From contig DXJO01000044.1 in the NCBI GenBank assembly GCA_019057475.1, positions 1-52,191 of the forward strand: a DNA stretch of 52,191 bases. Reading direction: 5' to 3'. The position numbers and the translations under genes were made by a program. Below the pieces are notes generated by a model. The model had not been told where the DNA came from. It saw only the letters and a list, made by a program, of their open reading frames with translations, and did not search any database. Source of the stretch: Candidatus Thorarchaeota archaeon (GTDB lineage: Archaea > Asgardarchaeota > Thorarchaeia > Thorarchaeales > Thorarchaeaceae). Positions 986-19,663 of the stretch are shown here, piece by piece (within the stretch, counting starts at the first letter, position 1; the number at the start of each line of letters is the position of its first letter).

Positions 986-2917
986 TCAGCTACCTCTTCT
1001 GCGTCTTCGCCTGAGCTGATCCAGTGCCACAAAGATGACCACAAATGAAACAGCAGCGACAAGCCTTAAGTCTATGATATTAGGCCAATAGATGAAACCG
1101 GGGTCGGTATACACCAAGAAGCCAATGTCGCGCCTGCCGTTAGCACCTTCGATGCTACTTGCTATGTATATCAGATTATTCTCGCCAGCCGCAATGAGCC
1201 AACGAAACCAGTATTCCGATTCGCTACAGAACTCTGACATACTCCGACTCCAGAGTTGTCTACCCGTTTCATCGTATCTTGCCAGTCTGTACAACTGGGA
1301 ATCCATTGGCGAGTATAGGACCATGTACAATGAATCGTCTGGGGCCACGCAACAAGTCTCAATCAGTAGAGGATCGCTGAAATCCTCGGTGTACACTATC
1401 TCCATGCTCTGATTCCACGTAACAGAACCTTCTGCGCTTATCCGGATAAGGCTGGAAGCACTGACCATGGGATAATTGAAGGTCGAATAGGCGGCATATA
1501 CATCTCCTTCAGTAGTTAACTGCATTCTGTCGAATTTGCCGGTGACATTCCAAAGCAAATTGCCGTCCCTATCACACTTTGTGATTGCCTGTCCAGTCTG
1601 AACATACACATCTCCATCATGCGTGACTCCTAAGCTTGTCCCAGCACCTAAGTACTTCCAGAATGTTGCATTCCACAAATGCGCTCCATCTTGGTCAAGT
1701 TTCATGAGGACAGGTGTGTAACGATAGGGTTCCAGCGATTCCACCACGCTGGCTATCACGTAGATTTCCCCATCCGGTCCTACTGCAACATCACGCCCCA
1801 GGCTACCGTTCGGGAAGTCCCATCTATGAGTCCAGGCATGAGTTCCATTTGTCTTGTACTTCGCAAGAAGCGTGTTGTAAATTGGATAGGGGACTGGGTC
1901 ATAGGGTCCGAGCCAATCTGACGCCACAACATAGATGAAATCACCGTAGAGATCCAGACTGGGCCAGTATGAGCTCTCGTTGAAAGACGCCCACCAGACG
2001 ACTTCGCTGTTGGACCCCCATTTCACGAGGCAGGGCGTGTGGTTTTCAAAAGGATATCCGCCAAGCGACATAATTGCACCATAGACTGAGCCTTCTGAGT
2101 CGACATGTAGGTCAGACCACAACTCACTGCCCTCATGGTCCCAAAATCCTTGGGCAATTGAGCTAATCTCCTCCACCGGAGTGTGTTCTCCAACTAATGC
2201 CAGGGCACTTATTCTTTGAAGACTCATTGTCACAGAGCCGTTGCAGTATCGCCATGGCTCTGTGCCATTGTACAGCCTGTGAAATGACTCGCTTGGAGAG
2301 AGCCCGACCACGAGAGCGAGGGAATAGGCACCAAGTGGTGTTTCGGCGGTCTGTGTTTCCCACACTTCATCTATCCTGTTCTCTAATAGGTCCACACTCG
2401 CCGAATTCATACCATTCAATGTAGGGAGCGTGGTGTCCACGGAAACCCACCGTCCCATTGAAGTGATCATCCTGACAAATGGCTGGAAGTAGATCGAACC
2501 AGCTAGCTCAAATTCATAGTCGATGGATATTTTCACACGAAGCGGAGGGCAATCACGCTCCCATACGAACGGCTTTCTACAGACTATGAACTCGTTACAC
2601 TCTGGTGTTTCATTATATCTGTAATCTGTTGGTATTGGGTAGTCCAGTCGTGTACCCGCGGTGTGATTCCAAGTCATGCTCAAGTCGCCGTCAACACCGT
2701 CAGACTCGTAATCAAATGAGAACTCCCCAGAGTCACCTGCAATGATTACCTCTGGCATATCAGATAGCTCTGGGTCAGACAGGAGCTCCCACGAGGTGTA
2801 GTCTGAGGGTCTAGCGGGCTGAAGCGTGTTCTCAGTAGCAGAAACTGGGGCACTGACCAACAATCCAACAGATAGTATTAGGAGGAGGACATAGGACCCT
2901 TTCCTTCTAGCACTCAT
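986..2917 (-). CDS. Surface-anchored beta-propeller protein
   Basis: A 643-residue protein predicted to sit on the outer face of the cell. Residues 1-27 form a signal peptide. The central part carries six or so propeller-type repeats, each with a pattern like 'DGxxLWN' followed by 'GDVY' or 'GEIYV', as in PQQ/SBBP-type beta-propellers (about residues 260-590). Near residues 610-634 a single membrane helix is followed by a run of arginines, anchoring the protein with a short cytoplasmic tail. Many N-x-S/T sequons suggest glycosylation. The N-terminal 230 residues are not recognised. It lies alone between decayed sequences on both sides. Ligand and role are unknown; cell-surface recognition or adhesion is plausible. 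Confidence 0.8.
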   Translation of the reverse strand: MSARRKGSYVLLLILSVGLLVSAPVSATENTLQPARPSDYTSWELLSDPELSDMPEVIIAGDSGEFSFDYESDGVDGDLSMTWNHTAGTRLDYPIPTDYRYNETPECNEFIVCRKPFVWERDCPPLRVKISIDYEFELAGSIYFQPFVRMITSMGRWVSVDTTLPTLNGMNSASVDLLENRIDEVWETQTAETPLGAYSLALVVGLSPSESFHRLYNGTEPWRYCNGSVTMSLQRISALALVGEHTPVEEISSIAQGFWDHEGSELWSDLHVDSEGSVYGAIMSLGGYPFENHTPCLVKWGSNSEVVWWASFNESSYWPSLDLYGDFIYVVASDWLGPYDPVPYPIYNTLLAKYKTNGTHAWTHRWDFPNGSLGRDVAVGPDGEIYVIASVVESLEPYRYTPVLMKLDQDGAHLWNATFWKYLGAGTSLGVTHDGDVYVQTGQAITKCDRDGNLLWNVTGKFDRMQLTTEGDVYAAYSTFNYPMVSASSLIRISAEGSVTWNQSMEIVYTEDFSDPLLIETCCVAPDDSLYMVLYSPMDSQLYRLARYDETGRQLWSRSMSEFCSESEYWFRWLIAAGENNLIYIASSIEGANGRRDIGFLVYTDPGFIYWPNIIDLRLVAAVSFVVIFVALDQLRRRRRRGS

Positions 2918-3634
2918 ACCTCATCGCACACCATAGACCCTGTTCACTGTGACCCACCCTCATCTGGCTGCAGATAAGAGAATTCGATTTCCGTCTGCAT
3001 GTGGCATTATTGCAGGATGAAGATATGAATCATACCTAAAGAAGACCTTGGACTCTCTCGTGGGGACCATTGATCACCAGAACGATTACCAACACTAGGA
3101 TTCGAATGCGAAGAAATGGTAGCGGGTGGTCGATTCGAGAGAAATCAAGGCTCTAGGCACCTCATCTTCATGTTTAAGCAAAAGACATAAGGAATCTTAT
3201 AGTTGGGCGGCGTTCTGTCGAACTGGAGTCAGGGTGCTCCTTGATTTGGAGTTGGAGCGCTCTCGGAAGAAAGGGAAGTGAGTGTTCAAACACTCGCGCC
3301 ACCCCTTGCGAAACCCCTATTCTGATTCACAGAGATGGTGGTTACTCATACAGACAGTATGTAAAACTAACAGGCACTCTAGCAGTTTTACAACAACACT
3401 CGTGTAAAACTCTCCTGACGCTGTTAGGTTGAGTTTTATTGAGAAGTAAATCGGTTCTGGCCACTCTTCTTTACAGAAGAGGTCTGAAATCTCCCAGATG
3501 TAGTAGAATGAGCCATCGGATCGTCTAGTCACTATATATGGCCTCCCGAAACCCTCTATGGCAGTTGTTGATGGCCGTACTCCCTCAGAAAAGTTGAGGG
3601 ATAAGAGAGCGCAATCCAAAAGGACGGACCTACT
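2918..3634. other. Gene-poor stretch with remnants
   Basis: No convincing intact gene. It contains the tRNA-like fragment at 3095-3137 and a possible minus-strand remnant ORF at 3317-3619 (100 codons). That ORF's middle part has natural-looking composition (aromatic and acidic residues, an IWEISDLF stretch), but it has no recognisable family and no clear ribosome binding site. The area fits the decayed mobile-element scenery of the left end of the window. Confidence 0.4.
3095..3137 (-). repeat. tRNA 3'-end-like fragment, copy B
   Basis: Minus-strand reading gives T-loop TCGAAT, T-stem half CGACC, acceptor half ACCCGCT, discriminator A and CCA at 3118-3120. An acceptor ending CCCGCTACCA is typical of archaeal initiator tRNA-Met. 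About 43 bp match 791-830 apart from a few substitutions and a gap. Most likely an att-site remnant left by an element that integrated into the initiator tRNA gene. Confidence 0.5.
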
Positions 3635-3793
3635 ATGAAACTAGTTGAGGTATCTGACCTGTTCTCGCAGAGGCGACTTGCGTTCCAAGAGAGAATTAAG
3701 ATGTGGCGAGTCATGTTTCAAGAGCGAGTCAACGTGTGGCAAGTCAGGTTATTCCAACGACAACTCGGGAAAATCATCAGGAGGACTCGTTAA
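3635..3793 (+). CDS. Small basic protein, remnant operon gene 1
   Basis: A 52-residue ORF rich in Arg, Gln and Phe (motifs such as RLAFQERI and FQRQLGKIIRR), predicted helical. Its TAA overlaps the ATG of the next frame (TAATG at 3791-3795), the first of a chain of start/stop overlaps that reaches 4588. The family is not recognised. Short, basic, tightly overlapping genes are typical of virus or plasmid structural or DNA-binding blocks. The downstream members are broken, so this gene may be a surviving relic. Confidence 0.45.
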   Translation: MKLVEVSDLFSQRRLAFQERIKMWRVMFQERVNVWQVRLFQRQLGKIIRRTR

Positions 3794-4346
3794 TGTCTCG
3801 TGAATCGAACTTAAGTCACCTGACTCTGCTTAAGTCACGACACGAATCATTGAAATTACGTGAAAACGTGTCCAAGGACAACCTATCAAGAATTTGCACG
3901 AGAACGACTCGAGTGCAACTCGTGTCACTCAAGAACCACAAGTCGGGTCAAACGAGTATAGTTCTCGTATTGGCCATCTTGCAGACGTGCTTTTGCCTGT
4001 GTTTGCTTCAAGTGGGGCACTGAACTCGCTAAACTCACAACAACATGACGCTTCCCTCCCATCTGAACACAGCATGACATCACAACCGCCGATGAGTCAA
4101 AATCCCCAAGGTTCACGACAAAGGCAGAGGCTCATCGGCACCATTTTTAGATCACTGTTCGGACAGCAACAAGGAATCGCAGAACGACAACCTGTCCAAG
4201 GAACAAAGCAGGATGTGTGAGAGCGGCTTGGGCAACGAGAGGTTGCTGAATTACCTATTGACCTGCAGGACGCTCAGGCAAAACGTGATGAACGATTTCG
4301 CAGGATGCAGCGCATGGGAGTCAACATAGGGGATGACCGATTATGA
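3793..4346 (+). pseudogene. Broken Gln-rich gene, remnant operon gene 2
   Basis: The start at 3793 overlaps the preceding stop, but the protein-like frame shifts near 3880-3930. The second frame then runs to 4346 through an in-frame TGA at 4218-4220. Composition is continuous across that TGA: Gln/Arg-rich and low in hydrophobics, ending in RRMQRMG. The final TGA (4344-4346) overlaps the ATG of the next gene as ATGA. One frameshift plus one nonsense codon in an otherwise operon-like layout indicates decay. No family is recognised. Confidence 0.5.
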
Positions 4347-4591
4347 CTAAGAAACTCTCGGCGTACAATAAACACGTCCAGAAAGAAATGCTCAAGGGCA
4401 GGTCAATGTCCTAGGCAGCTGCGAGTTGGAACAAGGGAACCTCAAAGCCCCGAAAGAGATCCAAACGCAAGCCGACCACGCGAAGGAGAACGACCAGAAG
4501 GCAGACAGCCAAGCAAGGGCCGCGTCTGTTTCCTCTTTTGGATGGACTCAGAACACGAATTCAAAACAGGATCCGAATCATTAGGAGATGA
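4343..4591 (+). pseudogene. HMG/YABBY-like basic protein with in-frame TAG
   Basis: Starts at an ATGA overlap with the preceding frame and ends at an ATGA overlap with 4588. The first 22 codons read as an HMG/YABBY-like DNA-binding helix (pattern LSAYNKHVQKEM..G.SM) and are followed directly by TAG (4412-4414). The same frame continues as AAASWNKG and a strongly Arg/Lys-rich tail to TGA at 4589-4591. The pattern 'GxSMxxAAxxW' spans the stop, so TAG most likely replaced a CAG (Gln). Such small chromatin-like basic proteins are common in archaeal and large DNA viruses. Family assignment is by eye only. Confidence 0.5.
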
Positions 4592-4917
4592 TTAAGACAA
4601 TGACAGTCCAAGTAAAAGGACGGAACTGTCCAGGGTCTGACAGAGAAAGAGCAGAACGAGATCGAGCGCGGAACATAAGGACACGATATCACGATAGACA
4701 CAACGTGCCACCGGATCCCAGAGGACCACGGACTTTCACAAGGCACCTGACACGTCCGGTGTCATCCATGCCTTCGGTCATATCTAGTGGATCGCCAACA
4801 GGACCGACCAAAGGAATGCACCCATTGGCGAGGAGAAACCCTGCAAAATACAGCCGCAAAATGTCAATTTCTGATGTTGTCCCTCATTCTCCTTATCCCA
4901 GACAAGATATCATCTAA
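4588..4917 (+). CDS. Arg/Pro-rich hypothetical, remnant operon gene 4
   Basis: A 109-residue ORF beginning with an ATGA overlap on the preceding frame; AGGAG lies just upstream (4583-4587). It is rich in Arg, Pro and Ser and has no recognisable domain. The overlap supports it as a genuine, once co-translated gene of the remnant operon. The C-terminal third is low in hydrophobics and may be disordered. Whether it is still functional is uncertain, given the broken genes before it. Confidence 0.4.
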   Translation: MIKTMTVQVKGRNCPGSDRERAERDRARNIRTRYHDRHNVPPDPRGPRTFTRHLTRPVSSMPSVISSGSPTGPTKGMHPLARRNPAKYSRKMSISDVVPHSPYPRQDII

Positions 4918-4926
4918 AGACATCAT

Positions 4927-5724
4927 CTAACCCCCCCGTTCATTGCTCTCTTGGGAGAATCCCTTTGATTTCACCCCTTTCTTGGGGGAAGCCTCGGGGG
5001 GTAGCCCCCTCTCTTGAGCCTTAGTCTTGGGACGCCCCTTTGTTCTTGGGTCAGATCTTGGGTTGGATATTGGGATATTTGGGTTCGACCTTGAGATGCT
5101 AGGGTCGGACTTGGGTTTAATCTTGGGTTCGACTTTCATCTTGGGACGGTCCTTAATACTTGGGTCAGGTCTTGGATTTGACCTTGGAAAACTTGGGTCG
5201 GATCTTGGGTTCGACCTTGGAATACTTGGGTTGGTCTTGGGACTCTTGGATTGGGTCTTGGGTCCGACCTTTTTCTTGGGACTCTCCTTAATATCCTTAA
5301 CTTTGGGTTCGAGCTTGGGTTGAACTTGAGATACTTGGGTTGGATCTTGGGTTGAACTTGGGATACTTGAGTCGGATCTTGGGTTCGACCTTAAGAGTGA
5401 TGGAAGTGGTCTATCAATCATTACATCGAGTCTTCGAAGTGTCCTTCGTGCCCTCGCTGTGATTCTATATCCTTTGACCCTTTTCCGGGGGTTCACAATA
5501 TCTGGCACTGGTTCTACAAGTTCCGCGTGGAAAAGATCCCCAAGTCCGCCGTCGAAACGCAGAGTGGATGGGGAAAACCCACAGATGGTGGCAATGTCTT
5601 CAAGGGTCATATAGGGTTCACCACTCATAGCCAATGCTGTGAAAGCACGACTGGAAACCCCTTTCTTCAATACTTTGCCAATATCAGCAAGTCGGATCAC
5701 TGAACGATCCTTAGATTCCGTCAT
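4927..5724 (-). CDS. Winged-helix protein with repetitive Pro/Ser/Lys tail
   Basis: A 265-residue protein. Residues about 10-95 look like a winged helix-turn-helix: an ALAMSGEPYMTLEDIATICGF-type helix-turn-helix followed by a recognition helix and an Arg/Lys-rich wing. Residues 105-265 are low-complexity and presumably disordered, built from degenerate 10-12-residue repeats such as SIPRSNPRSDP interspersed with KPK-type basic blocks. It is transcribed divergently from the replication operon that starts near 5802, so it may be that operon's regulator. The tail is encoded by a minisatellite. The ORF in the opposite frame over this repeat is a shadow. Confidence 0.7.
   Translation of the reverse strand: MTESKDRSVIRLADIGKVLKKGVSSRAFTALAMSGEPYMTLEDIATICGFSPSTLRFDGGLGDLFHAELVEPVPDIVNPRKRVKGYRITARARRTLRRLDVMIDRPLPSLLRSNPRSDSSIPSSTQDPTQVSQVQPKLEPKVKDIKESPKKKVGPKTQSKSPKTNPSIPRSNPRSDPSFPRSNPRPDPSIKDRPKMKVEPKIKPKSDPSISRSNPNIPISNPRSDPRTKGRPKTKAQERGLPPEASPKKGVKSKGFSQESNERGG
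5030..5400 (-). repeat. Coding minisatellite in the winged-helix gene tail
   Basis: Degenerate direct repeats built around CTTGGGTC.GATCTTGGGTTCGACC-type units (plus-strand view) occur roughly every 30-36 bp. They encode the SNPRSDPS-like repeats of the 4927-5724 protein. Unit number and spacing are irregular, which suggests repeat expansion by slippage or unequal recombination. Confidence 0.7.
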
Positions 5725-5792
5725 AGATCTTCCCTACAAATAGGTAGATTCCTAAAGTTGATAAGATTCCGACGCTAACGGGGTTAAGACGC

Positions 5793-5811
5793 CTTCTTTC
5801 AGTGAAAGAAG
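5793..5811. promoter_or_regulatory. Perfect 8-bp inverted repeat at operon start
   Basis: CTTCTTTC, a 3-bp spacer, then GAAAGAAG, placed between the divergent winged-helix gene and the replication operon. It overlaps the GTG at 5802 and ends 2 bp before the ATG at 5814. It could be an operator for the divergent winged-helix protein or an RNA hairpin hiding the start. Its position favours the ATG at 5814 as the start of the next gene. Confidence 0.4.
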
Positions 5812-5813
5812 AT

Positions 5814-6101
5814 ATGAAAACATATGAAAACATATATTGGGGCTTTGATTGGTCCGATATGTTGTGCCTTGGAAATAAGAAAATGAAAGAAGTCAAAAGA
5901 CCCCCCAGCGTGCTTCTGAGCAGATTCATTGGACCAGAAGATGAGATACTACAATTCTTGAGGGAGATTGAGGAACGCTTTAACATTAAGTTGTATCCAG
6001 ACACACCAAGGATTGATAGACAATATCCTGATTGCGTCAGGATCTACGTTAAGATACCACTTGACAGGCCGCCCGTCAAGAAAGAGGTGTCTGAAGAATG
6101 A
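5814..6101 (+). CDS. Small hypothetical protein, first gene of replication operon
   Basis: About 95 residues from ATG 5814; a GTG four codons upstream at 5802 is the alternative. It has an aromatic N-terminus (YWGFDW) and then an alpha/beta-looking segment with an acidic/basic helix (FLREIEERF) and a strand (VRIYVKIPL). No family is recognised. Its TGA overlaps the ATG of the SF3 helicase (ATGA at 6098-6101), implying coupled translation, so a replication accessory role is a reasonable guess but no more. Confidence 0.6.
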   Translation: MKTYENIYWGFDWSDMLCLGNKKMKEVKRPPSVLLSRFIGPEDEILQFLREIEERFNIKLYPDTPRIDRQYPDCVRIYVKIPLDRPPVKKEVSEE

Positions 6102-7630
6102 GTGAGGACATCTTTGTGTCTGATGAAGATGTTGTGAAATCCACCTCTAGCTCTTCCTTAACTAAACGGGGTAGTAGGATTAAGGATTCACCTACCTACA
6201 CCCTAGCCCACATAATTATGAAGAACCGAAGATTCTACACCGATGGTGGGGCTGAATTGTGGATATTCGATGAAACTAAGGGGTTGTGGACACCAAAAGC
6301 AAGGCCTTTCATTCGTAAACAAGCCGTGGCGATGTTGGCTGAAAAGTGGACCAAACACAAGGAGAATGAAATCATAGGGTTCATTCATAGCTCGCGTTTC
6401 GATCCCGATGTGGAACTAGGAAAGCTAAGACATAGGATTGTGTTGTTAAACGGAACCTACGACCTAGATGAGATGGTGTTCCACAATGAGTTCTTTCCTG
6501 AAGAATATCAGACCATACAAATACCAGTCGACTACGACCCCAAGGCCAAATGTCCAAAATTCAAGAAGTTCATGAAAGAGATAATTCCAGACGAATGGGA
6601 TAGATTGTGTATAATGGAATGGTTTGGATATCATCTGTACAAGTCATACAAGTTTGCGATCTTTCTCATTTGTCTGGGAGATGGAGCGAACGGAAAGTCC
6701 ACAATGTTGGCGGTATTGGAGAGGTTCATAGGGAAAGAGAATAGCAGCTCCTGTACGCTGAAACAAATCCTTCAGGACAAGTTCAAGACTGCTCAACTCT
6801 ACATGAAGCTAGGAAACGTTTGTGGGGATGTTTCAAAGACCGGCCTAGCAAAGACTGGCACCATCAAACAATTGACAGGCGGGGATAAATTGACCGCCGA
6901 ACACAAACATCTTCCAGAGTTCAGTTTCTACAACTTTGGTAAGTTGACATTCGCTGCCAATGAACTACCATACAGCTATGACAAGACTTCGGCCTTTCAT
7001 CGAAGGGTAAGGATAATTGAGTTTCTTCGAGTATTCCTAGCTGATGACCCCAACACTAGGGACCAAGATGAATTGATAGATGAGATGACTACCCCCAAAG
7101 AGTTGAGTGGGATCTTTAACGCCGCTCTTGAAGGATGGGAACGACTTAGATCGAAAAGACAATTGACCGGAACAAAGCCAATTGAGGACAATACACTCTA
7201 TTGGACATTGAAGAGTGATCCTGCTGCTTATTTTTGTATGCAATACCTAGTGCATGATACTAAATACCCCGATATCAAAAAGGCGTGGCTCTATGATGTC
7301 TATATCAAATGGAGTCACACCATAGACAAGACCCCTATTAGTAGCAGTTGGCTCTCACGCAAGTTGAAGATAATGGTGCCATTCGCAGAGGACGCGTCCA
7401 GTTCAGGAGGAGCTAGGTATTGGAAAGGATTTCGAGTGGATGAAGAGAAGATGAGGGCAGATCTAAGGGAGTTAGAGGAATCAGGCACCATAACGATAGA
7501 AACGACATATTTTGATCTATTATTCTCATTTATCGAAGGAAAAAAAGAAAATAATATATCAGAAAATGGCGTTCTTGGCGTTTCTAAGAAATTGGATAAA
7601 GTCTTTGATGATGAGGGGGTTGAGTCATGA
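6098..7630 (+). CDS. D5_N/SF3 replicative helicase
   Basis: A 510-residue superfamily 3 helicase of the poxvirus D5/phage P4 type. Residues about 35-185 correspond to the D5_N region. Walker A is GDGANGKST (194-202), a Walker B-like strand is GNVCGDVS (239-246), motif C ends in the diagnostic Asn at KLTFAANELP (282-291), and the Arg-finger region is AFHRRVRI (299-306). A winged-helix-like C-terminal part follows. No primase (AEP/PrimPol) domain precedes D5_N, so priming must come from elsewhere, such as the host. The last residues contain SKKLDKVF, a weak PIP-like motif. It overlaps both neighbours by ATGA. Role: unwinding the element's origin or fork, by homology. Confidence 0.9.
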   Translation: MSEDIFVSDEDVVKSTSSSSLTKRGSRIKDSPTYTLAHIIMKNRRFYTDGGAELWIFDETKGLWTPKARPFIRKQAVAMLAEKWTKHKENEIIGFIHSSRFDPDVELGKLRHRIVLLNGTYDLDEMVFHNEFFPEEYQTIQIPVDYDPKAKCPKFKKFMKEIIPDEWDRLCIMEWFGYHLYKSYKFAIFLICLGDGANGKSTMLAVLERFIGKENSSSCTLKQILQDKFKTAQLYMKLGNVCGDVSKTGLAKTGTIKQLTGGDKLTAEHKHLPEFSFYNFGKLTFAANELPYSYDKTSAFHRRVRIIEFLRVFLADDPNTRDQDELIDEMTTPKELSGIFNAALEGWERLRSKRQLTGTKPIEDNTLYWTLKSDPAAYFCMQYLVHDTKYPDIKKAWLYDVYIKWSHTIDKTPISSSWLSRKLKIMVPFAEDASSSGGARYWKGFRVDEEKMRADLRELEESGTITIETTYFDLLFSFIEGKKENNISENGVLGVSKKLDKVFDDEGVES

Positions 7631-7851
7631 GCATCAGCCATTATCGAGGATTCTCAACTGAAATCCTGCTCAGGTGGAAAAGGGATCTAGAATATGAGGC
7701 ATCGAACTGGAATCGCAGAATCAAGGAACAACATACAAGAAAATTCGATCCCATATTTCAAACTGTGACTGAGTACAAGAACAGAATCCGTGATTGCCGA
7801 AGGTCCATCAAACAGATTGACAAGGTTCTTGCCGAGAGGGGGATGGTGTGA
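7627..7851 (+). CDS. Small helical hypothetical protein
   Basis: A 74-residue basic protein with two likely long helices (residues 8-35 and 45-70) and charged heptad-like spacing; no family is recognised. It starts at an ATGA overlap with the helicase stop, and its TGA is directly followed by the ATG of the TopoVIA-like gene. It is therefore certainly part of the operon and may be an adaptor between helicase and topoisomerase-like protein, which is inference only. Confidence 0.65.
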   Translation: MSISHYRGFSTEILLRWKRDLEYEASNWNRRIKEQHTRKFDPIFQTVTEYKNRIRDCRRSIKQIDKVLAERGMV

Positions 7852-9675
7852 ATGGGTAAGCGAACCAAATTCAATGATGTCACGAAGAGGCTACTGGCTG
7901 AGCGTTTGGCGCATGTCAAGAAAGGATTCTTGCCCCCGTTCTCCGATATGAGGCACTTCTTCTATGAGTGTAGAAATGTGTTGCTCCGAGAGAACCCCGA
8001 TATGTTGGGGCCTGATGGCGGTGGTAAGGAACCATATAGCAATTGGTTGGGCATGGTAGCTAGATGGTGTGACAAATACACCGAGGACTTTGGCATTTCT
8101 GAAGGGCTTTGGTGGCGTGTCAGAGAGAGATTGAACCTTTTTGCTAAGGCTAGGGCAACCTGTGAAGGGGTTGAAGAGAAGTTTCTAGTGGACAAGAAGA
8201 CCAGACACAAAATAGCTAAGGGTTGTAGTTTCATTCTAGTCTGTGAGAAAGAAACCGTGACTAACGAATTAATGGCGAAGTTGCAGAATGAAGATTATTT
8301 ACTCAATGTTGTAGCGACTGGTGGAAAGACTACATCTGATGTCCAAGAGGCTGTATTGTCTATAGCTGAAGACCTAGGTGAGGCTCAAAATTTCTATGTT
8401 CTGGTTTTGCATGACTATGACCTAGATGGTGTGGGGATATATTACAAACTGAAGGAGCGATACAAAAATGCCATTGATGTTGGGGTCGGCCCCTCTTTTA
8501 TCAAGTTCTTGAAGAAGAGAAAAAGCATAGATCTTAGATTGGTCGAGGAACAGAAGCTGAATATGATTAATAGAGATTGGGTCAAGGAACATATGTTGTC
8601 GCACGATGAATACTCATTGTCTGATTTTGAGTATCTTTATGGTGAACCATACCAAGTTATTGTTAAAGGAAAGGAGAAGACTTACCACAAAGGCCGAAGA
8701 ATCGAGATCGATGCCATTCACGTACAATATGGCATAAAGCCGTTCATTGATTACATTCTGAAGCAAATCAAAAAGCGTTGCACGGTCTGGGATCTGACGA
8801 GGATTGGAGTGAACAAAGACGGTTATGTTTTTCAACTTCACAATCCTGATTGCAGATTCGAGGAGAGAATGGATGGACATGAAGATCCCGACTACATCAC
8901 ACCCATAGAGAAGATAGAAGAATGTGAGCTGCCGTTTAACTACGCCTATGCAGTGAGGAGTGTATGGAGGTATTTGGATCGGATATTAAAGCCCCCCTTT
9001 GATAGTGCTAAAGAGAAGCTTCAAGACCTAGTTGATTCAGTGAGTTCGGTGGTTCAAGACGATGTCATACATGAGAATTATGAAGAGTTTCAATCTGTGT
9101 TGGACGAGTATAAGGAGCTGGAGAATCAATCAGAATCCATCATAAAGCAGGCAACAGATCTTGAAGGAGAAACCAAGGGCGATCTTGTGCAATTGAAGGA
9201 AGAGATTGAGAAGGATATCTCAGCCCTGAAGGATGTGGTGGATACAGACATTTCAACCCTGCGGAATGACTTCGAGAACGATTTCGACATGGATTGGATT
9301 GAATCTCATCGTGAAGAACACCAAGACATTATTGACCAGATCGAAAACTATGAAGGAGATGTCCGAAAAGGGAAAAAGGATTTGATAGGTCGAGTTGAGA
9401 AGATACAAGAGAAGATGGAAAACGGGTCAAAAAACAATCCCCGATATGATGAGTTCCATACCAAGTTAGAAGAACTAGAGCAGAAACACTCAGAAGAACA
9501 AAAACAGGTCGATGCTAAGGTTGATGAGGGGATAGAACAAATGGACTCCAAGTGGGAGGACTTCGACTCCAAAGAAGAACTGATTGAAGACTTTCAGGGG
9601 CTAGATGAGAAACGCATTCTGGAGTTGATAGTTGAGGTGCTACAAGATCGATTGAAGGAGTTGGTTGAAGAATGA
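7852..9675 (+). CDS. Spo11/TopoVI-A-like (Mini-A type) protein with coiled-coil tail
   Basis: 607 residues. The N-terminal part has an MRHFFYECR segment (tyrosine at 38), resembling the catalytic-tyrosine helix of Spo11/TopoVI-A. Then comes a Toprim-like core: CEKE with Glu132 after a hydrophobic strand, a T/G-rich loop at about 155-161 (ATGGKTT), and LHDYDLDG with Asp188/Asp190 in the metal-binding DxD position, continuing GVGIYYKL as in TopoVI-A. Residues about 390-600 form a long acidic coiled coil. No TopoVI-B (GHKL) gene is nearby, as in the Mini-A proteins of archaeal plasmids and viruses. Expected role: DNA nicking or cleavage in replication or recombination. JetD-type nucleases share this fold, but no JetABC is present. 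Tyrosine assignment is by eye. Confidence 0.65.
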   Translation: MGKRTKFNDVTKRLLAERLAHVKKGFLPPFSDMRHFFYECRNVLLRENPDMLGPDGGGKEPYSNWLGMVARWCDKYTEDFGISEGLWWRVRERLNLFAKARATCEGVEEKFLVDKKTRHKIAKGCSFILVCEKETVTNELMAKLQNEDYLLNVVATGGKTTSDVQEAVLSIAEDLGEAQNFYVLVLHDYDLDGVGIYYKLKERYKNAIDVGVGPSFIKFLKKRKSIDLRLVEEQKLNMINRDWVKEHMLSHDEYSLSDFEYLYGEPYQVIVKGKEKTYHKGRRIEIDAIHVQYGIKPFIDYILKQIKKRCTVWDLTRIGVNKDGYVFQLHNPDCRFEERMDGHEDPDYITPIEKIEECELPFNYAYAVRSVWRYLDRILKPPFDSAKEKLQDLVDSVSSVVQDDVIHENYEEFQSVLDEYKELENQSESIIKQATDLEGETKGDLVQLKEEIEKDISALKDVVDTDISTLRNDFENDFDMDWIESHREEHQDIIDQIENYEGDVRKGKKDLIGRVEKIQEKMENGSKNNPRYDEFHTKLEELEQKHSEEQKQVDAKVDEGIEQMDSKWEDFDSKEELIEDFQGLDEKRILELIVEVLQDRLKELVEE

Positions 9676-9854
9676 GTTACTACAGCAGCCGAAAGCTGAC
9701 TGAAGAAGAGAAGGCCGAACAGAGCAAAAGGTTTGACGCCATCATAGATTCCTTCATCGATGAGACAACATCTTCTGAAGAGGTCAAACCGAAGATCCCT
9801 GTCAAGAAGCCATCACTGAAGAAACAAAAGAGTCTGGATGATATCTTCTCATGA
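9672..9854 (+). CDS. 60-residue peptide ending in a PIP-box-like motif
   Basis: A short charged, probably disordered protein beginning at an ATGA overlap with the TopoVIA-like gene. Its last nine residues read QKSLDDIFS. Gln52, Leu55, Ile58 and Phe59 fit the PCNA-interacting pattern Q-x-x-h-x-x-a-a, located at the extreme C-terminus as in many archaeal clamp clients. Its stop codon abuts, with no gap, the stop of the convergent PCNA-like gene. This suggests a clamp-binding or clamp-controlling peptide dedicated to the element's own clamp. The motif is real; binding is inference. Confidence 0.6.
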   Translation: MSYYSSRKLTEEEKAEQSKRFDAIIDSFIDETTSSEEVKPKIPVKKPSLKKQKSLDDIFS

Positions 9855-10607
9855 CTAAAAACTGCCGAGACTGCTGAGCATGTAGGTCAACATGTAGTCC
9901 TTTGAACGCTGTGATAGTATCATTGCATCCTTTCTTAGTGTCAACCAGACTTCGGTTTTGGGTCCGAATTGGTTTATGATTTTGTCGAAGAGATATTTTT
10001 CAAAAAGCATCTCTGTGTCACCCAGCATCTCACGTAGCACCTTAGTCCTGCTGGGAGTGATAACCTTTCTGAACTTTCCTACATCCTCGGCGAATACAGA
10101 CAGTTGTTTACCATCGCAGGTAAATAACAGACGGTCCACTTTCGGCAAGCCAATCAGGATGTCTGCTTTGACCAATATCTGAACCACGGGGTCTAGATCC
10201 TTCGGCAACAATCCCATAGTCATGTGAGCTACGAAGGGGAAGGGGATCTCACAGAGTTCAGCCTCAACAAACGGCTCTTCGTAGTCTTGCCATTTGCCCT
10301 GCAAATAGATCTTGTCCTTCTTGGTTCTTATCTCGACCTTCTCTTCTTTTTTGAAGCTATCCTTCATGATGTCAAGTAATGACTTTGAGAACGGGACCTG
10401 TTCCCCCTCCTTAGCCTCAAACTCCAAAAAGTATTCGGACGAGAAGACGGCATTGACAGCAAGAGCCTCAAGGGTAATGTCTTTGAAGACTACTCCTTTG
10501 GCACTGAACACGCCAACGTGAGCGTCTAGCAGCGCAGGTTTCCCGTGGCACACTAACACGTTCACCAGCAAGCGCTGAAGTCGCTCTGGTTCAACAATTG
10601 CTTTCAT
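9855..10607 (-). CDS. PCNA-like sliding clamp of the element
   Basis: 250 residues, the normal PCNA length. Secondary-structure-like layout matches two clamp domains: an N-terminal helix, a GVVFKDITLEALAV strand-helix element, FFS-like SSEYFLEFEA followed by a connecting loop and L..I.K helix (residues about 85-105), and a second half (about 145-250) ending in strands and a TYMLSSL tail. The canonical C-terminal 'APR' is missing. Archaeal viruses and plasmids occasionally encode PCNA homologues. It is co-transcribed with the ParB-like gene (ATGA overlap at 10604-10607) and convergent with the PIP-box peptide gene. A structural match would settle the call, since sequence similarity is faint. 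Confidence 0.6.
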   Translation of the reverse strand: MKAIVEPERLQRLLVNVLVCHGKPALLDAHVGVFSAKGVVFKDITLEALAVNAVFSSEYFLEFEAKEGEQVPFSKSLLDIMKDSFKKEEKVEIRTKKDKIYLQGKWQDYEEPFVEAELCEIPFPFVAHMTMGLLPKDLDPVVQILVKADILIGLPKVDRLLFTCDGKQLSVFAEDVGKFRKVITPSRTKVLREMLGDTEMLFEKYLFDKIINQFGPKTEVWLTLRKDAMILSQRSKDYMLTYMLSSLGSF

Positions 10608-11392
10608 GATTTGTCCTTCTTTGTTTCTTTAGCTTCGATATCTCTAACGACTATGTGAGATTTGTTCAATATTGGGCTCTGAATTGGTCTGATGGTGACT
10701 TTCACTCCTCGATACCAGTCCTCGGGAATGGTCGTTGTTATTGTCCATTCGCCATTCTCATTCTTCACAGGATCGAGAACCTTTGACTCACTCAATCTGG
10801 GAGGACTGAAAGATTTGACGGGACTCCCGCCGAATTCCCACTCCCTCAATTCAAGAAAGGCTCTCTCGACAGAGATATCCCCCCTCCTCGCCCTCAGCCT
10901 CAGATCTTCGGAGCCATTCTCTTCAATACGTTTCACTCTTCGCAGGGTTGTGTGACTGATTCCCACTCTCTTAGCAGCTTTCACATCGGCCCGACCCTTG
11001 ACCTTCGTAAAGTCCTTTACGGAGGTCTTGTCCATCAGATCGGTTCTGATTCCCTTTCTCTTCTTGGCGATCTTGCTCTCAACTTCCAGAAACTTCAGAG
11101 CTACTAGCCCCTTGGAATAGGTATTCAGCTGCCGTCGCAGAACATTGTCCTTGATGGCATACTCAATCATCTTCGACCTGTCTTTGAACTTCTTGACAAC
11201 ATAGGGCGGCGCAATTCCCAGCTCAAGTGCTATCTTGTACCTCTGATGACCGCAGACGATTGTCCCATCCTTAGCCACAATCAAGGGATCGCGGATGCCG
11301 TTCTTCTTGATGTCCCTCCTCAGTTCCTCATAGGTCCATTCCTCTAGACCCTCGAACAGAGCAGCTATCTTCTTGTCAATCCTAAGCTTCAT
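10604..11392 (-). CDS. ParB-like nuclease/partition-domain protein
   Basis: 262 residues. Residues 20-95 form a ParB/sulfiredoxin-type N-terminal domain: 'YEELRRDIKKNGIRDPLIV', then CGHQRYKIA (47-55) in the place of the ParB CTP-binding box GHRR. A helix-turn-helix region follows (about 130-160, AAKRVGISHTTLRRV) and a C-terminal beta-rich domain of about 70 residues. It heads a two-gene operon with the clamp gene. The 21-bp repeats at 11505-11584 lie just upstream and are candidate binding sites. Plausible roles are segregation or copy control of the element; a ParB-fold regulator is the alternative. Confidence 0.7.
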   Translation of the reverse strand: MKLRIDKKIAALFEGLEEWTYEELRRDIKKNGIRDPLIVAKDGTIVCGHQRYKIALELGIAPPYVVKKFKDRSKMIEYAIKDNVLRRQLNTYSKGLVALKFLEVESKIAKKRKGIRTDLMDKTSVKDFTKVKGRADVKAAKRVGISHTTLRRVKRIEENGSEDLRLRARRGDISVERAFLELREWEFGGSPVKSFSPPRLSESKVLDPVKNENGEWTITTTIPEDWYRGVKVTIRPIQSPILNKSHIVVRDIEAKETKKDKS

Positions 11393-11961: not shown

Positions 11962-12148
11962 AGATGAAGCTGATGGCCTCCTAGATCTTCGACGAACATC
12001 TTGGACCCTACGAAGTGGAATGACAATGAGAAGAAGAGGGGTTGGTGATGGTCCCCCCCTTTACGACTATACATTTTTCCGAATTCTTCATTTGTCCCAC
12101 ATATTCGCGGGCCCGAGTTCGTTCCCTGCAATAGGTGAACAGAAATGA
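11945..12148 (+). CDS. Possible 67-residue protein
   Basis: An ORF from ATG 11945, preceded by GAGGGGG, that ends in an ATGA overlap with the membrane protein gene at 12145. Its start lies inside the previous gene's end. Composition is Arg-rich and not obviously domain-like. The overlap arrangement is the main support. Otherwise this would be a 180-bp untranslated gap. Confidence 0.35.
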   Translation: MSPVIEDEADGLLDLRRTSWTLRSGMTMRRRGVGDGPPLYDYTFFRILHLSHIFAGPSSFPAIGEQK

Positions 12149-13158
12149 ACAGAAAGAAACTGAGGATGGCTTTACTATTCGGGATCCTTTTGTTGGCGGT
12201 TTTTGTTATGCCGGTAGAAGCAACGACTTTTGAGTTGGCCGAGGATGGCCACTGGCATTTTGAGTTTAATGTAAATGCATATGGATATCAGTATGTTTAT
12301 GGCACTAAAGTGGAGGGTCATGGTGCATATGGAACCTTCACTGTGCATTATGACGATATCACATTCTTCATTGTTGACCAAGAGAACTTTGACAAATACA
12401 AAAACGGCCAAAGCTACAGTAGATATTGTGTGCTCTTAGATGTTGTTGATGGCGACTACAAGTTCCGTTTTCCTTATGCTGATACTTGGTATAGTGTATT
12501 CTGTAATAAGGATAGCATCTGGCCAAAAGATATTACTTTTGACTTGTATCATGACTCAACTCCACCCGATGTCACGTTGAATCTCGATACTGGCGCAACC
12601 TATAGCGGCATCAAAGAGATTAGGGCGACTGCTAGTGATGTCAGTTTTTCTGTGTGGAAGCTTAGTCTGCAATACTATCTCAACGGCTGGCGAGCAGTAA
12701 AGACAGAATACAATACTGAAAGCATCAGCTACAATTGGGACACAAAGGATTGGAGCAACGGCGACTTAAGATGGAGGGTAGTGGCTGAGGATACTGTCAA
12801 CAATGAGGCAATCAAAGAAGTTATGGTGACTGTCTATAATTATGTGGCACCGACTACAACAGAAGTAACAACTACAGATGGAATTACGACTACAGACGGA
12901 CAGGCGACTACTAATGGGCCATCCACATATACTGACCCGACTGCGCTGTTGATGTTGCTTGGGATTGTGGGCACTGTTATCATTGGTATAGTAGCTGTGT
13001 CACGTCGGAGTAAGGAAATCTCTCCAGAAATGCCTAAACCAGATTTAACCTTAAAGGAGAAAGAGATTACAACTAAAGTTTTGATTATATGTCCCTTCTG
13101 CGGGGCAAAGACAGAACAGGGGCTCACCAAGTGCCAAAACTGCGGTGCTGACCTCTAA
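12145..13158 (+). CDS. Signal-peptide membrane protein with Ig-like domain and C-terminal zinc ribbon
   Basis: 337 residues. A signal peptide (residues about 5-27) is followed by an extracellular beta-rich region of some 120 residues. Next is an Ig-like domain starting at STPPDVTLNL and containing AEDTVNNEA, as in bacterial surface Big-type domains. A Thr-rich stalk (TTTEVTTTDGITTTDG), one membrane helix (about 270-290), a basic linker and a cytoplasmic zinc ribbon complete it (CPFCGAKTEQGLTKCQNCGADL region, two CxxC pairs). Outside binding coupled to an inside ribbon is typical of Asgard surface proteins. In this element it could serve attachment or surface remodelling. It is followed at 32 bp by the stalked transglutaminase gene. 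Confidence 0.75.
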   Translation: MNRKKLRMALLFGILLLAVFVMPVEATTFELAEDGHWHFEFNVNAYGYQYVYGTKVEGHGAYGTFTVHYDDITFFIVDQENFDKYKNGQSYSRYCVLLDVVDGDYKFRFPYADTWYSVFCNKDSIWPKDITFDLYHDSTPPDVTLNLDTGATYSGIKEIRATASDVSFSVWKLSLQYYLNGWRAVKTEYNTESISYNWDTKDWSNGDLRWRVVAEDTVNNEAIKEVMVTVYNYVAPTTTEVTTTDGITTTDGQATTNGPSTYTDPTALLMLLGIVGTVIIGIVAVSRRSKEISPEMPKPDLTLKEKEITTKVLIICPFCGAKTEQGLTKCQNCGADL

Positions 13159-13189
13159 CACGATCCTAAAGAAATAGGAGAGAATAGAA

Positions 13190-14752
13190 ATGGAACAAAA
13201 ACATCTAAACATCTTTTTGGTGGTACTCTTGGTGGGTATCATAGGAGTCAGTAGCGTTGCTGTTGTTCAGCAGATGAGCTACCAGAGCCTAGATTCCGAA
13301 TACCAAGATCTACTCACAGACTATGAAACACTGTCCTCTGACTGGAACCAAACTTCAGATGACTTGAATGACCTACAATCAGAGTTCGAGACGATGCAAA
13401 CATCTTATCTTACGTTGATAGATGATTATGCTAGTCTTAGTGAGATACATCTGATTGTGCTGTCGAACAACACGAATCTTCAGCAGTCTCTTGATGACCT
13501 TCAGGTGCTGTATGACCAATTGCTTGAAGACTTTGCTTTGTTGAATGCGTCTTTTGTGGAGCTCGAACAGAACCATGCCGACCTTCAAGCAGACTATGCT
13601 CAGCTTCAGTCGGATTACGATGAGCTTCAGGTGAACTATAATCAGCTGTTGCTTGACTACAACGACCTCATGGCACAGTATCAGGTTCTTCAGGACTCGT
13701 ACAATGCTCTGGTGTTGGCTTATGATACTCTGGAGCTACAGTATGATGCCTTAGTACTTGACTACGATGCACTCTTGAGTGACTACAACGCGCTTGCCAA
13801 TGACTTTTCAGCATTACAGAACGACTACGATGCGCTTGAGCTAGCTTATAACACACTCTCAACTTGGATACGGCAGCAGATTCTACCTGTTCAACACATG
13901 GTATTCGCTGAGGCAGTTCGACAATATTACCTTCAGGACTACCTTGACCAGTCTTCAGACACGAAGGGTTGGTATAGACAATACACAAGGTTCTGTCGCG
14001 ACTTGGTGCTTCATGCTTCAGGTCAATGGGACCCATTTCAGACCGTTTCAGAGGCGTTTAGTGATGCCCTGCTTTATGGTTCAGACACGATGAGTCTGAC
14101 ATATTGGGCCATGTATAGCATGGCCATGTACGATGGATCTTCTTGGCAGACGTTCCCATATCGTTGGGGATGGAGCTTTAGTCCTGAGAACTGGGGCATT
14201 GATATCGTCGTTCAAGACTGTATTGACAACATCGACTATGAATATGACACCGACATCACCTATGGACAGTCGGGTGCCACATGGGACTATCCAAAACATC
14301 CTGTCGAAACGGCCTTCAGGACAATGGGGGATTGTGAGGACCAAGCAATATTGACAGCAGCATATCTTGAGAGAACTAGTTTCTACAATGCTACTGACAA
14401 CTACAGGTTTGAAACAGCAATGGCAATATTCCACGACCCTGCCCATCCTACGTTGGGGTCTTTCTATCATGCAACCCTTTTGGTCCATATTGAGGACACT
14501 GCCGACTTCTACAGTAGGTATCCATTAGGTGTTTTATGGAACCTAGGAGGAGGCATCGACCCTTACAGTGGATTTACTTGGTGCTGGTTAGACCCGACAT
14601 GGAATGTTCCCTTTGGGGCTGTTCCGTCTTGGTTGACAGCCTACAGGATTCATGGTGGGCTTGGTTATGACGTGATGTCAATAGCCATCAATGACTACAA
14701 CGGGGGCATTGCTCAGACAGGGAATGGACCCCTTGGGGCATATGTGCCCTAG
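13190..14752 (+). CDS. Membrane-anchored coiled-coil stalk with transglutaminase-like enzyme head
   Basis: 520 residues. An N-terminal membrane anchor (7-26) is followed by a long coiled coil (about 30-225) made of near-repeats such as YDALVLDYDALLSDYNAL, probably a trimeric or tetrameric rigid stalk. The head (about 230-520) carries a transglutaminase-like triad: Cys382 in GDCEDQA, His427 in FYHATLL and Asp468 in WLDPTW. Such folds act as proteases, amidases or crosslinkers. Anchor topology puts the head outside the cell. This resembles a spike, but an enzymatic one, so it may cleave or crosslink S-layer or surface proteins of host, competitor or target cell. Catalytic class is inferred from motif spacing. 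Confidence 0.75.
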   Translation: MEQKHLNIFLVVLLVGIIGVSSVAVVQQMSYQSLDSEYQDLLTDYETLSSDWNQTSDDLNDLQSEFETMQTSYLTLIDDYASLSEIHLIVLSNNTNLQQSLDDLQVLYDQLLEDFALLNASFVELEQNHADLQADYAQLQSDYDELQVNYNQLLLDYNDLMAQYQVLQDSYNALVLAYDTLELQYDALVLDYDALLSDYNALANDFSALQNDYDALELAYNTLSTWIRQQILPVQHMVFAEAVRQYYLQDYLDQSSDTKGWYRQYTRFCRDLVLHASGQWDPFQTVSEAFSDALLYGSDTMSLTYWAMYSMAMYDGSSWQTFPYRWGWSFSPENWGIDIVVQDCIDNIDYEYDTDITYGQSGATWDYPKHPVETAFRTMGDCEDQAILTAAYLERTSFYNATDNYRFETAMAIFHDPAHPTLGSFYHATLLVHIEDTADFYSRYPLGVLWNLGGGIDPYSGFTWCWLDPTWNVPFGAVPSWLTAYRIHGGLGYDVMSIAINDYNGGIAQTGNGPLGAYVP

Positions 14753-18316: not shown

Positions 18317-19444
18317 CTACTCAGCCAACGCCCGAGTAAGCGCTGTCATAATCATATCAGCATCCCATTCAGCTTTGATAGCCTTGCCACCGCCTACACC
18401 ACGAGTCAGGTCTTTCATCTTTTTGGCAGTGATGTGTCTCGACAACTCTCGTTTGAGAGCATCTATCATGGACTCTTGACGGTCCACTTCCAGATAGCGC
18501 AGAGCACTGCGGTACTTCTCCTTGAGTAATGATATGGCGTCCTCGTCAATGTCGGCCAATCCACTGTATCGAGCAGGCATTTTGTCTAGTCCCGCCTTGT
18601 GTCCCATCAGGTATTCAGCCTCGGCTTCATCGAGTGCTCGGCCAATGTTCTTTCTGAAGTACTTGCGCAGGCCATACACTCGAAATCGCTTGAATGATTC
18701 GCCAGTGGGGTGCTTACCAGTGATGTTATCGACCAGACGGTTGAAGTAGCATCTCAAAGTGTTCGTCAACAAAGGCATCCCCGTTATGCTGACCACGTAG
18801 GACTTGGCTTTGAATCTCTCGCCTTTGGACCGTCTAAGATCTAAAAGCTGTTTCAGATACTTAGTGCCTTCGGGGGACAAGAAGGTGACGTACCAATCTC
18901 CTGTCTTTCGTTGCTTGAGCTTGATTGATAGGATATCATCATTCTGCGACAAAGACCTGCTGATGTTCTCGTATCTAAGGTTACAAACATCGACTGGCCT
19001 CATTCCGCTGTAAGCTATCAATGAGAATGCGACCTTGTATTTGAGCTTGGCCTGTCCGAGAATCATCTTCAGTACATCCTTGTTTGGAATGTAGTCGAAG
19101 TAGACTCTACTCTTTGGGATGTCCCGCGGCTTGATTCGGATATGCTTTCTGTTGTCACCGAACCACCTGCAAAGGGCATTCCAAGCCTGCTTGAGGGTGT
19201 TACCGGATAGGGGATCGAAGTCCCTGCCTAATTTCTTCGACATAACGAAGTGATATTCACTCTGCAAGTACAGCAGAAAGTCTTCCATTCTGTCTTCTGT
19301 CTTCTCTAGGTCCCATTTCAATGTGGCATTGGGGCTGGCTTCGCAATATTCACAGAACCTTTCAACCCAATCGACATAGATACCTTTGGTCTTAGGGTTC
19401 CGGATTCGTTTCTTCCATCTTATCCATTTGTCTTTTGACGACAT
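18317..19444 (-). CDS. Tyrosine recombinase (integrase) of the element
   Basis: 375 residues with an N-terminal SAM-like core-binding region (about 1-115) and a catalytic domain. Visible catalytic residues are Arg149 (SGMRPVDV), a Lys in KQRKTG (about 180), Arg260 in VYGLRKYF (the His of the usual HxxR box is Tyr257), His282 in MGHKAG and nucleophile Tyr293 in PARYSGL. The gene lies at the right edge of the element, the usual place next to an att site. The C-terminal extension past Tyr293 (about 80 residues, basic and helical) is longer than in many integrases. It should catalyse integration and excision. Confidence 0.9.
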   Translation of the reverse strand: MSSKDKWIRWKKRIRNPKTKGIYVDWVERFCEYCEASPNATLKWDLEKTEDRMEDFLLYLQSEYHFVMSKKLGRDFDPLSGNTLKQAWNALCRWFGDNRKHIRIKPRDIPKSRVYFDYIPNKDVLKMILGQAKLKYKVAFSLIAYSGMRPVDVCNLRYENISRSLSQNDDILSIKLKQRKTGDWYVTFLSPEGTKYLKQLLDLRRSKGERFKAKSYVVSITGMPLLTNTLRCYFNRLVDNITGKHPTGESFKRFRVYGLRKYFRKNIGRALDEAEAEYLMGHKAGLDKMPARYSGLADIDEDAISLLKEKYRSALRYLEVDRQESMIDALKRELSRHITAKKMKDLTRGVGGGKAIKAEWDADMIMTALTRALAE

Positions 19445-19663
19445 AGTGTTTCAATTAGTAACTAGACGCAAGGCCATATAGACTTACCTAATAGGGGGAT
19501 ATTTCCGGCTCCTTATTAAATGATAGCGTGACATTGACGTTGCCGAGCTTCATAGCGCCTGACTAATGTTGTTCAGCGCAGTAGATTCGTAGACATCTTA
19601 ATCCAAGTACAGTAGAAATTTTAAGGCATGTTCCCAATGTGGAGATGCTTGCGATGTGAGAGG

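Follow-up and report, generated by a model that had tools for sequence, protein, structure and literature searches.

A diverged PCNA-type clamp and a small protein with a PIP-like C-terminus in convergent operons of a Thorarchaeota mobile element

The window analysed here is a stretch of 52,191 nucleotides, contig DXJO01000044.1 of a Candidatus Thorarchaeota archaeon (assembly GCA_019057475.1), which carries a mobile element. Five plus-strand genes between 5802 and 9854 overlap as ATGA or abut one another and look like one replication operon. They encode a 99-aa protein (5802..6101, +), which is 47% identical in the related element L049, a D5/P4-family primase-helicase (6098..7630, +; TIGR01613, 1.8e-50), a 74-aa protein (7627..7851, +; ATGA overlap at 7627-7630, abutting 7852), a 607-aa protein (7852..9675, +) and, as the last gene, a 60-aa peptide with a PIP-like C-terminus (9672..9854, +). 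The 607-aa protein has a TOPRIM/Spo11-like (DUF2399-like) region, an assignment that is weak (DUF2399, E 0.072), as well as a C-terminal coiled coil and a DYDLDG motif recognised by eye. On the opposite strand, the gene for a PCNA-type clamp (9855..10607, −) is coupled by ATGA (10604-10607) to the upstream gene of a ParB-like protein (10604..11392, −; phrog_12047, 1.6e-17; TIGR00180, 5.5e-9), and this operon is convergent to, and separate from, that of the peptide.

The right end of the element carries a tyrosine recombinase/integrase gene (18317..19444, −; PF00589, 4e-7). Homology to the chromosomes of related genomes begins at a point where two sister genomes have three contigs that either stop or diverge, beside a small-GTPase gene, and positions 19514..19516 are therefore the probable right boundary of the element and probably an integration hotspot. 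As window base 1 is also the first base of the contig, the element may extend to the left past the contig start. A search for an exact direct repeat at the element ends found none. The integrase and the D5 helicase in the same gene cluster place this PCNA-family gene on a mobile element, whose host also possesses a PCNA of its own. Among the ORFs of the element, neither a polymerase nor an RFC gene was found. Further genes encode an HTH-like protein whose long tail consists of degenerate SNPRSDPS repeats (4927-5724, −; 47- and 69-nt direct repeats at 5025-5392) and two likely secreted proteins (12145-14752, +), of which one has a zinc ribbon at its C-terminus, behind a membrane helix, and the other combines a long coiled coil with a domain containing Cys/His.

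The 60-aa ORF (MSYYSSRKLTEEEKAEQSKRFDAIIDSFIDETTSSEEVKPKIPVKKPSLKKQKSLDDIFS) is a real gene, as follows from its codon score, the GAAGGAG before its start and its ATGA overlap. Its coding potential is 0.349 bits per codon, which falls within the 0.16-0.37 of the other genes of the element, whereas 51 spurious ORFs inside genes reach at most 0.105. The GAAGGAG, a Shine-Dalgarno-like site, is located at 9654..9660 (+), and the ATG forms an ATGA (9672-9675) with the stop codon of the gene before it, the same arrangement as at 6098 and 7627. The peptide ends in KKQKSLDDIFS followed by TGA at 9852-9854, which touches the stop of the clamp ORF at 9855-9857 (CTA, read as TAG on the minus strand) with a gap of 0; the abutting stops described in an earlier note on this DNA are thus correct to the base (9854/9855). 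The middle of the peptide looks basic and disordered; its N-terminal two-thirds comprise, as judged by eye, a helix-like stretch at about residues 7-30 and a basic linker after it. That the peptide is the frameshifted-off C-terminus of the 607-aa protein was considered and rejected because the ORF has a start and a ribosome site of its own and overlaps its neighbour as genes do, by ATGA; moreover, a 695-aa protein with a similar TOPRIM-like region in a second element, L005, has no such tail. No homologue of the peptide was found in 196 related genomes, IMG/VR or the phage collection, and a comparison with PDB chains at E<=10 gave no similarity beyond noise. A search of Asgard genomes with the peptide reported matches in 31 genomes, most of which were low-complexity Lys/Glu/Ser stretches in unrelated long proteins, the one informative match being the tail of a uracil-DNA glycosylase (UDG).

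Sequence comparison and modelling support the view that the 250-aa product of the minus-strand neighbour is a strongly diverged PCNA. The PCNA fold is built of two domains with repeated beta-alpha-beta-beta-beta units. A single homologue of the clamp was found (29% identity, E 1.9e-18) on contig 78 of genome G153 (BPTK01000079.1, Candidatus Heimdallarchaeota archaeon 7H_bin4), that is, in L005; no element besides these two was found to carry the clamp family. A profile of the two element clamps reached a genuine Asgard PCNA gene adjoining an RFC small-subunit gene (E 1.1e-7, one genome), hhalign of the element clamps against 12 Asgard PCNAs returned E 1.1e-4 at a probability of 57%, and the sole NCBIfam match was 'DNA polymerase sliding clamp' (E 0.004). 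Structure prediction with AF2 from the two element sequences alone reached a low pLDDT of 44, and the best 40 PDB matches of this model were all PCNA or beta clamps (top E 1.8e-5). With the 12 Asgard PCNAs in the alignment, a result that is not independent evidence, pLDDT rose to 65, the E-value was 9.4e-12, and helices and strands followed one another as expected for a PCNA; the A3 profile search of the PDB was not counted as evidence, since the PCNAs in the alignment dominate it. A predicted PCNA fold and detectable PCNA homology were hence both found for the element clamp, which bears out the earlier note in calling the ORF PCNA-like, and the structure prediction that it had proposed as a check yielded a clamp fold, at the low pLDDT given above.

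As a single sequence, the clamp had no Pfam match, and its searches of the PDB and PHROGs produced only noise. A scan of the genome with Pfam PCNA_N recovered the host PCNA alone and missed the window clamp. Neither the window clamp nor the L005 clamp, whether used singly or as an alignment of both, found a relative in IMG/VR, and the same held for the TOPRIM protein and the peptide; tblastn of both element clamps against phages gave noise. Weak clamp matches in the genomes G041, G048 and G197 were dropped as pieces with E 0.004-0.03 in unrelated or broken frames. The element clamps share 11-17% identity with cellular PCNAs. The canonical pocket for PCNA-interacting (PIP) motifs includes His44, an Ala-Pro after the last strand and the long interdomain connector. 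In the element clamps His44 is lost and the pocket segment LAPR is replaced by LSSL (window) or LSAQ (L005), while an I-P-x-P-containing connector is alignable by eye. The host's own ordinary PCNA, encoded elsewhere in the genome (G000:C18), has the C-terminal LAPR region.

PIP motifs follow the pattern Q-x-x-h-x-x-a-a and mostly lie at the extreme N- or C-terminus of a protein (PMC3504372). The tail Q52-K-S-L55-D-D-I58-F59-S60 (codons at 9825..9851, +) is the extreme C-terminus of the peptide and agrees with this consensus except for Ile58 at the first aromatic site, so the fit to a PCNA-interacting motif that the earlier note had claimed holds with this one deviation. When the peptide was shuffled, the pattern Q..[LIM]..[FYWILV][FYW] occurred within the last 12 residues with P = 4.6e-4. 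It was present in the same position in 3 of 710 called Asgard proteins (the peptide, the host FEN1 and a DNA methyltransferase) and was absent from all 278 annotated proteins in the surroundings of ten PCNA genes of archaeal viruses or plasmids. By chance, about 0.01-0.02 such tails would be expected across the roughly 25 proteins of the element. The motif exceeds chance, but not overwhelmingly. The host FEN1 ends in QSTLSDFF, and an Asgard UDG (L022:1495-2151, −), the match found with the peptide itself, ends in QKSLTDFL (C-terminal sequence KQKSEQKSLTDFL, also given as KIPKQKSEQKSLTDFL). These comparisons support a resemblance of the peptide tail to PIPs of the same host and phylum. A second XPG/FEN1-type protein of the host (L086:1090-2076, +) has the likewise PIP-like C-terminus EQQTTLEQFA. 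A phmmer search with the doubled motif as query gave no matches.

The related element L049 (G031:C105) shares the gene at 5802, the D5 helicase and a 75-aa membrane protein, and has neither the clamp nor the peptide gene. The membrane protein (window:17985-18212, L049:10653-10880) adjoins the integrase and, at 76% identity, is the best conserved of the proteins that both elements share, diverged as they are in other respects. In the genome of the window itself, a fragment (G000:C51:93740-94048, i.e. L025:9741-10049) is 48% identical to residues 92-180 of the TOPRIM/Spo11-like protein, and a second D5 helicase (36% identical; G000:C51:79154-80464) lies about 13 kb from it; the two are apparently the remains of a related element.

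The second element with the clamp, L005 (G153:C78), is a virus-like contig on which positions 1680-6174 encode a phrog_24900-related protein, a P-loop ATPase, a 47-aa protein, the diverged clamp and a primase-like protein, the 695-aa TOPRIM/Spo11-like protein being encoded further along the contig. The ATPase gene belongs to the clamp operon, two genes upstream of the clamp, and its product begins with M-AEEKGLDEIFNEF / MAEEKGLDEIFNEF, which contains EKGLDEIF, a motif in which Glu replaces the Gln of the PIP consensus. Among 761 Asgard proteins (140,303 residues), LD[DE][IVLF]F occurred in two, at the N-terminus of this ATPase and at the C-terminus of the window peptide. A terminal match arose in 0.53% of shuffling trials with all minus-strand proteins of the L005 contig and in 0.01% with the ATPase alone. 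Because the test was devised after the pattern had been seen and rests on one pair, the shared motif is a lead and not a proof. As it sits in the operon of the diverged clamp in L005, it nevertheless favours the element's clamp over the host PCNA as binding partner of the peptide. The earlier note had proposed to look for the clamp and the peptide as a pair in other Asgard elements, and this search returned the clamp homologue together with the EKGLDEIF-bearing ATPase in L005, but no homologue of the peptide, and L049 lacks both genes.

We tentatively suggest, with a confidence somewhat below one half, that the element encodes a divergent PCNA-type clamp together with a small clamp-docking adaptor, the latter being the last gene of the replication operon. 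On this view, the QKSLDDIF at the C-terminus of the peptide would bind the front pocket of a PCNA-type ring, for which the clamp of the element itself is the simplest choice, while the N-terminal two-thirds of the peptide would hold a partner from the same translationally coupled operon, with the TOPRIM/Spo11-like protein or the D5 primase-helicase as candidates. In this way the adaptor would bring the partner enzyme to the ring, presumably for replication of the element. In favour of an adaptor are a real, coupled gene in a five-gene replication operon, a PCNA-family clamp next door that is backed by several profile and structure comparisons, the similar tails of the host FEN1 and the Asgard UDG, and the matching motif in the L005 clamp operon. 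On the other hand, clamp and peptide belong to separate convergent operons, the motif has Ile at the first aromatic position in the window and Glu for Gln in L005, and positions lining the pocket are changed in the element clamps (LAPR to LSSL or LSAQ, with His44 gone). In addition, the related element L049 manages without both genes, the peptide is devoid of homologues, a terminal PIP protein is missing near the PCNA genes of ten other archaeal virus or plasmid loci, and the second element is a single case for which the shared-motif test was post hoc. The interpretation in the earlier note is supported in part, namely for the PCNA-family clamp, the small gene and the tail motif, whereas a peptide dedicated to this clamp is one candidate reading. 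We regard it as rather doubtful that the altered pocket of the diverged element clamps reads its own motif K[SG]LD[DE]IF, distinct from the host PIP, so that the replication proteins of the element would use a ring orthogonal to that of the host; the docking motif of such a private clamp system would be a stand-alone adaptor peptide in one element and the N-terminus of an ATPase in another.

The adaptor must be weighed against a tail that matches the motif by chance or binds another target, in which case the peptide would be a small, ordinary accessory to the operon, for instance a partner or stabiliser of the translationally coupled TOPRIM/Spo11-like protein. This somewhat unlikely but by no means far-fetched explanation would fit the Ile at the first aromatic site, the lack of peptide homologues and the fact that the expectation of 0.01-0.02 tails applies to a window that was read closely for oddities. 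It accounts less well for the extreme C-terminal position after a basic linker, the PCNA gene next door, the likeness to the tails of the host FEN1 and Asgard UDG and the second motif-bearing protein in L005. If the tail does bind a PCNA, this might be that of the host, so that the peptide recruits the host replisome to the element or blocks host PIP clients and thereby shifts resources to the ring of the element. A canonical host PCNA with its LAPR region, a host FEN1 client with a similar tail and an element without polymerase or RFC gene among its ORFs would suit such a target; we nonetheless consider it unlikely, as the matching L005 motif lies in the operon of a diverged clamp and favours the element's ring.

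As a further alternative, the peptide might break the host PCNA trimer in the manner of TIP (Thermococcales inhibitor of PCNA), a small protein that breaks the PCNA ring of T. kodakarensis and in which a non-canonical PIP is followed by a 17-residue amphipathic helix (PMC6204406). The peptide is of the same size class and is likewise a small PIP-bearing protein, but it has one residue after the motif instead of a 17-residue amphipathic helix and showed no PDB similarity beyond noise, which makes an inhibitor of this kind very improbable. It is also quite improbable, albeit to a lesser degree, that the clamp-like protein is a PCNA-fold regulator which no longer serves as a processivity ring, with the peptide acting in a different complex. 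A precedent exists in the vaccinia late transcription factor G8R, for which a PCNA fold is predicted (PMC2674943), and the extreme divergence (11-17% identity to cellular PCNAs), the lost pocket residues and an operon shared with a ParB-like gene instead of replication enzymes would agree with a regulator. The L005 clamp, however, lies within a run of replication- or recombination-like genes (primase-like, P-loop ATPase).

Although element-encoded clamps are known, it is not obvious how an element keeps its own clamp and that of the host apart. A directly testable answer would be a divergent ring whose docking motif is encoded by the same element or in the same operon, and this in the Asgard archaea, the archaeal group closest to eukaryotes. 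Even the more modest reading as a stand-alone PIP adaptor would mean that an enzyme is attached to a clamp without any alteration of the enzyme itself, by a protein that is small and easily assayed. The window clamp was missed by Pfam, and such divergent clamp genes are therefore probably under-annotated.

According to the earlier note, no described system has exactly this form. This stands insofar as the pairing is unusual, but archaeal viruses and plasmids commonly encode PCNAs (22 phage and 31 plasmid records), and TIP, a small PCNA-binding protein, has been described (PMC6204406). Like the element analysed here, phiH, phiCh1, HFTV1, HHTV-1, HATV-3, CGphi46 and haloarchaeal plasmids have their own PCNA-type clamp beside the cellular one, in some cases near MCM or P4-primase genes. 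These PCNAs are recognisable, whereas the window clamp has diverged past Pfam detection, and none of ten virus or plasmid PCNA neighbourhoods contains a terminal PIP protein. T. kodakarensis PCNA2 (TK0582) is a second, dispensable, ring-forming PCNA beside the essential PCNA1 (PMC3984812); it is likewise a second PCNA, but a close PCNA relative for which the literature consulted describes no adjoining PIP peptide. TIP and the peptide are both small stand-alone archaeal proteins with a PIP-type motif, which in the peptide is located at the extreme C-terminus. The archaeal PCNA clients FEN1 and UDG share with the peptide a terminal Q-x-x-L-x-x-a-a after a flexible basic tail; in these enzymes, however, the motif is the tail of the enzyme, whereas in the window it ends a 60-aa protein that stands alone and has no recognisable domain. 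What is new here is the extreme divergence of the ring, a stand-alone PIP-tailed peptide that ends a D5-helicase operon and a matching motif in a second element.
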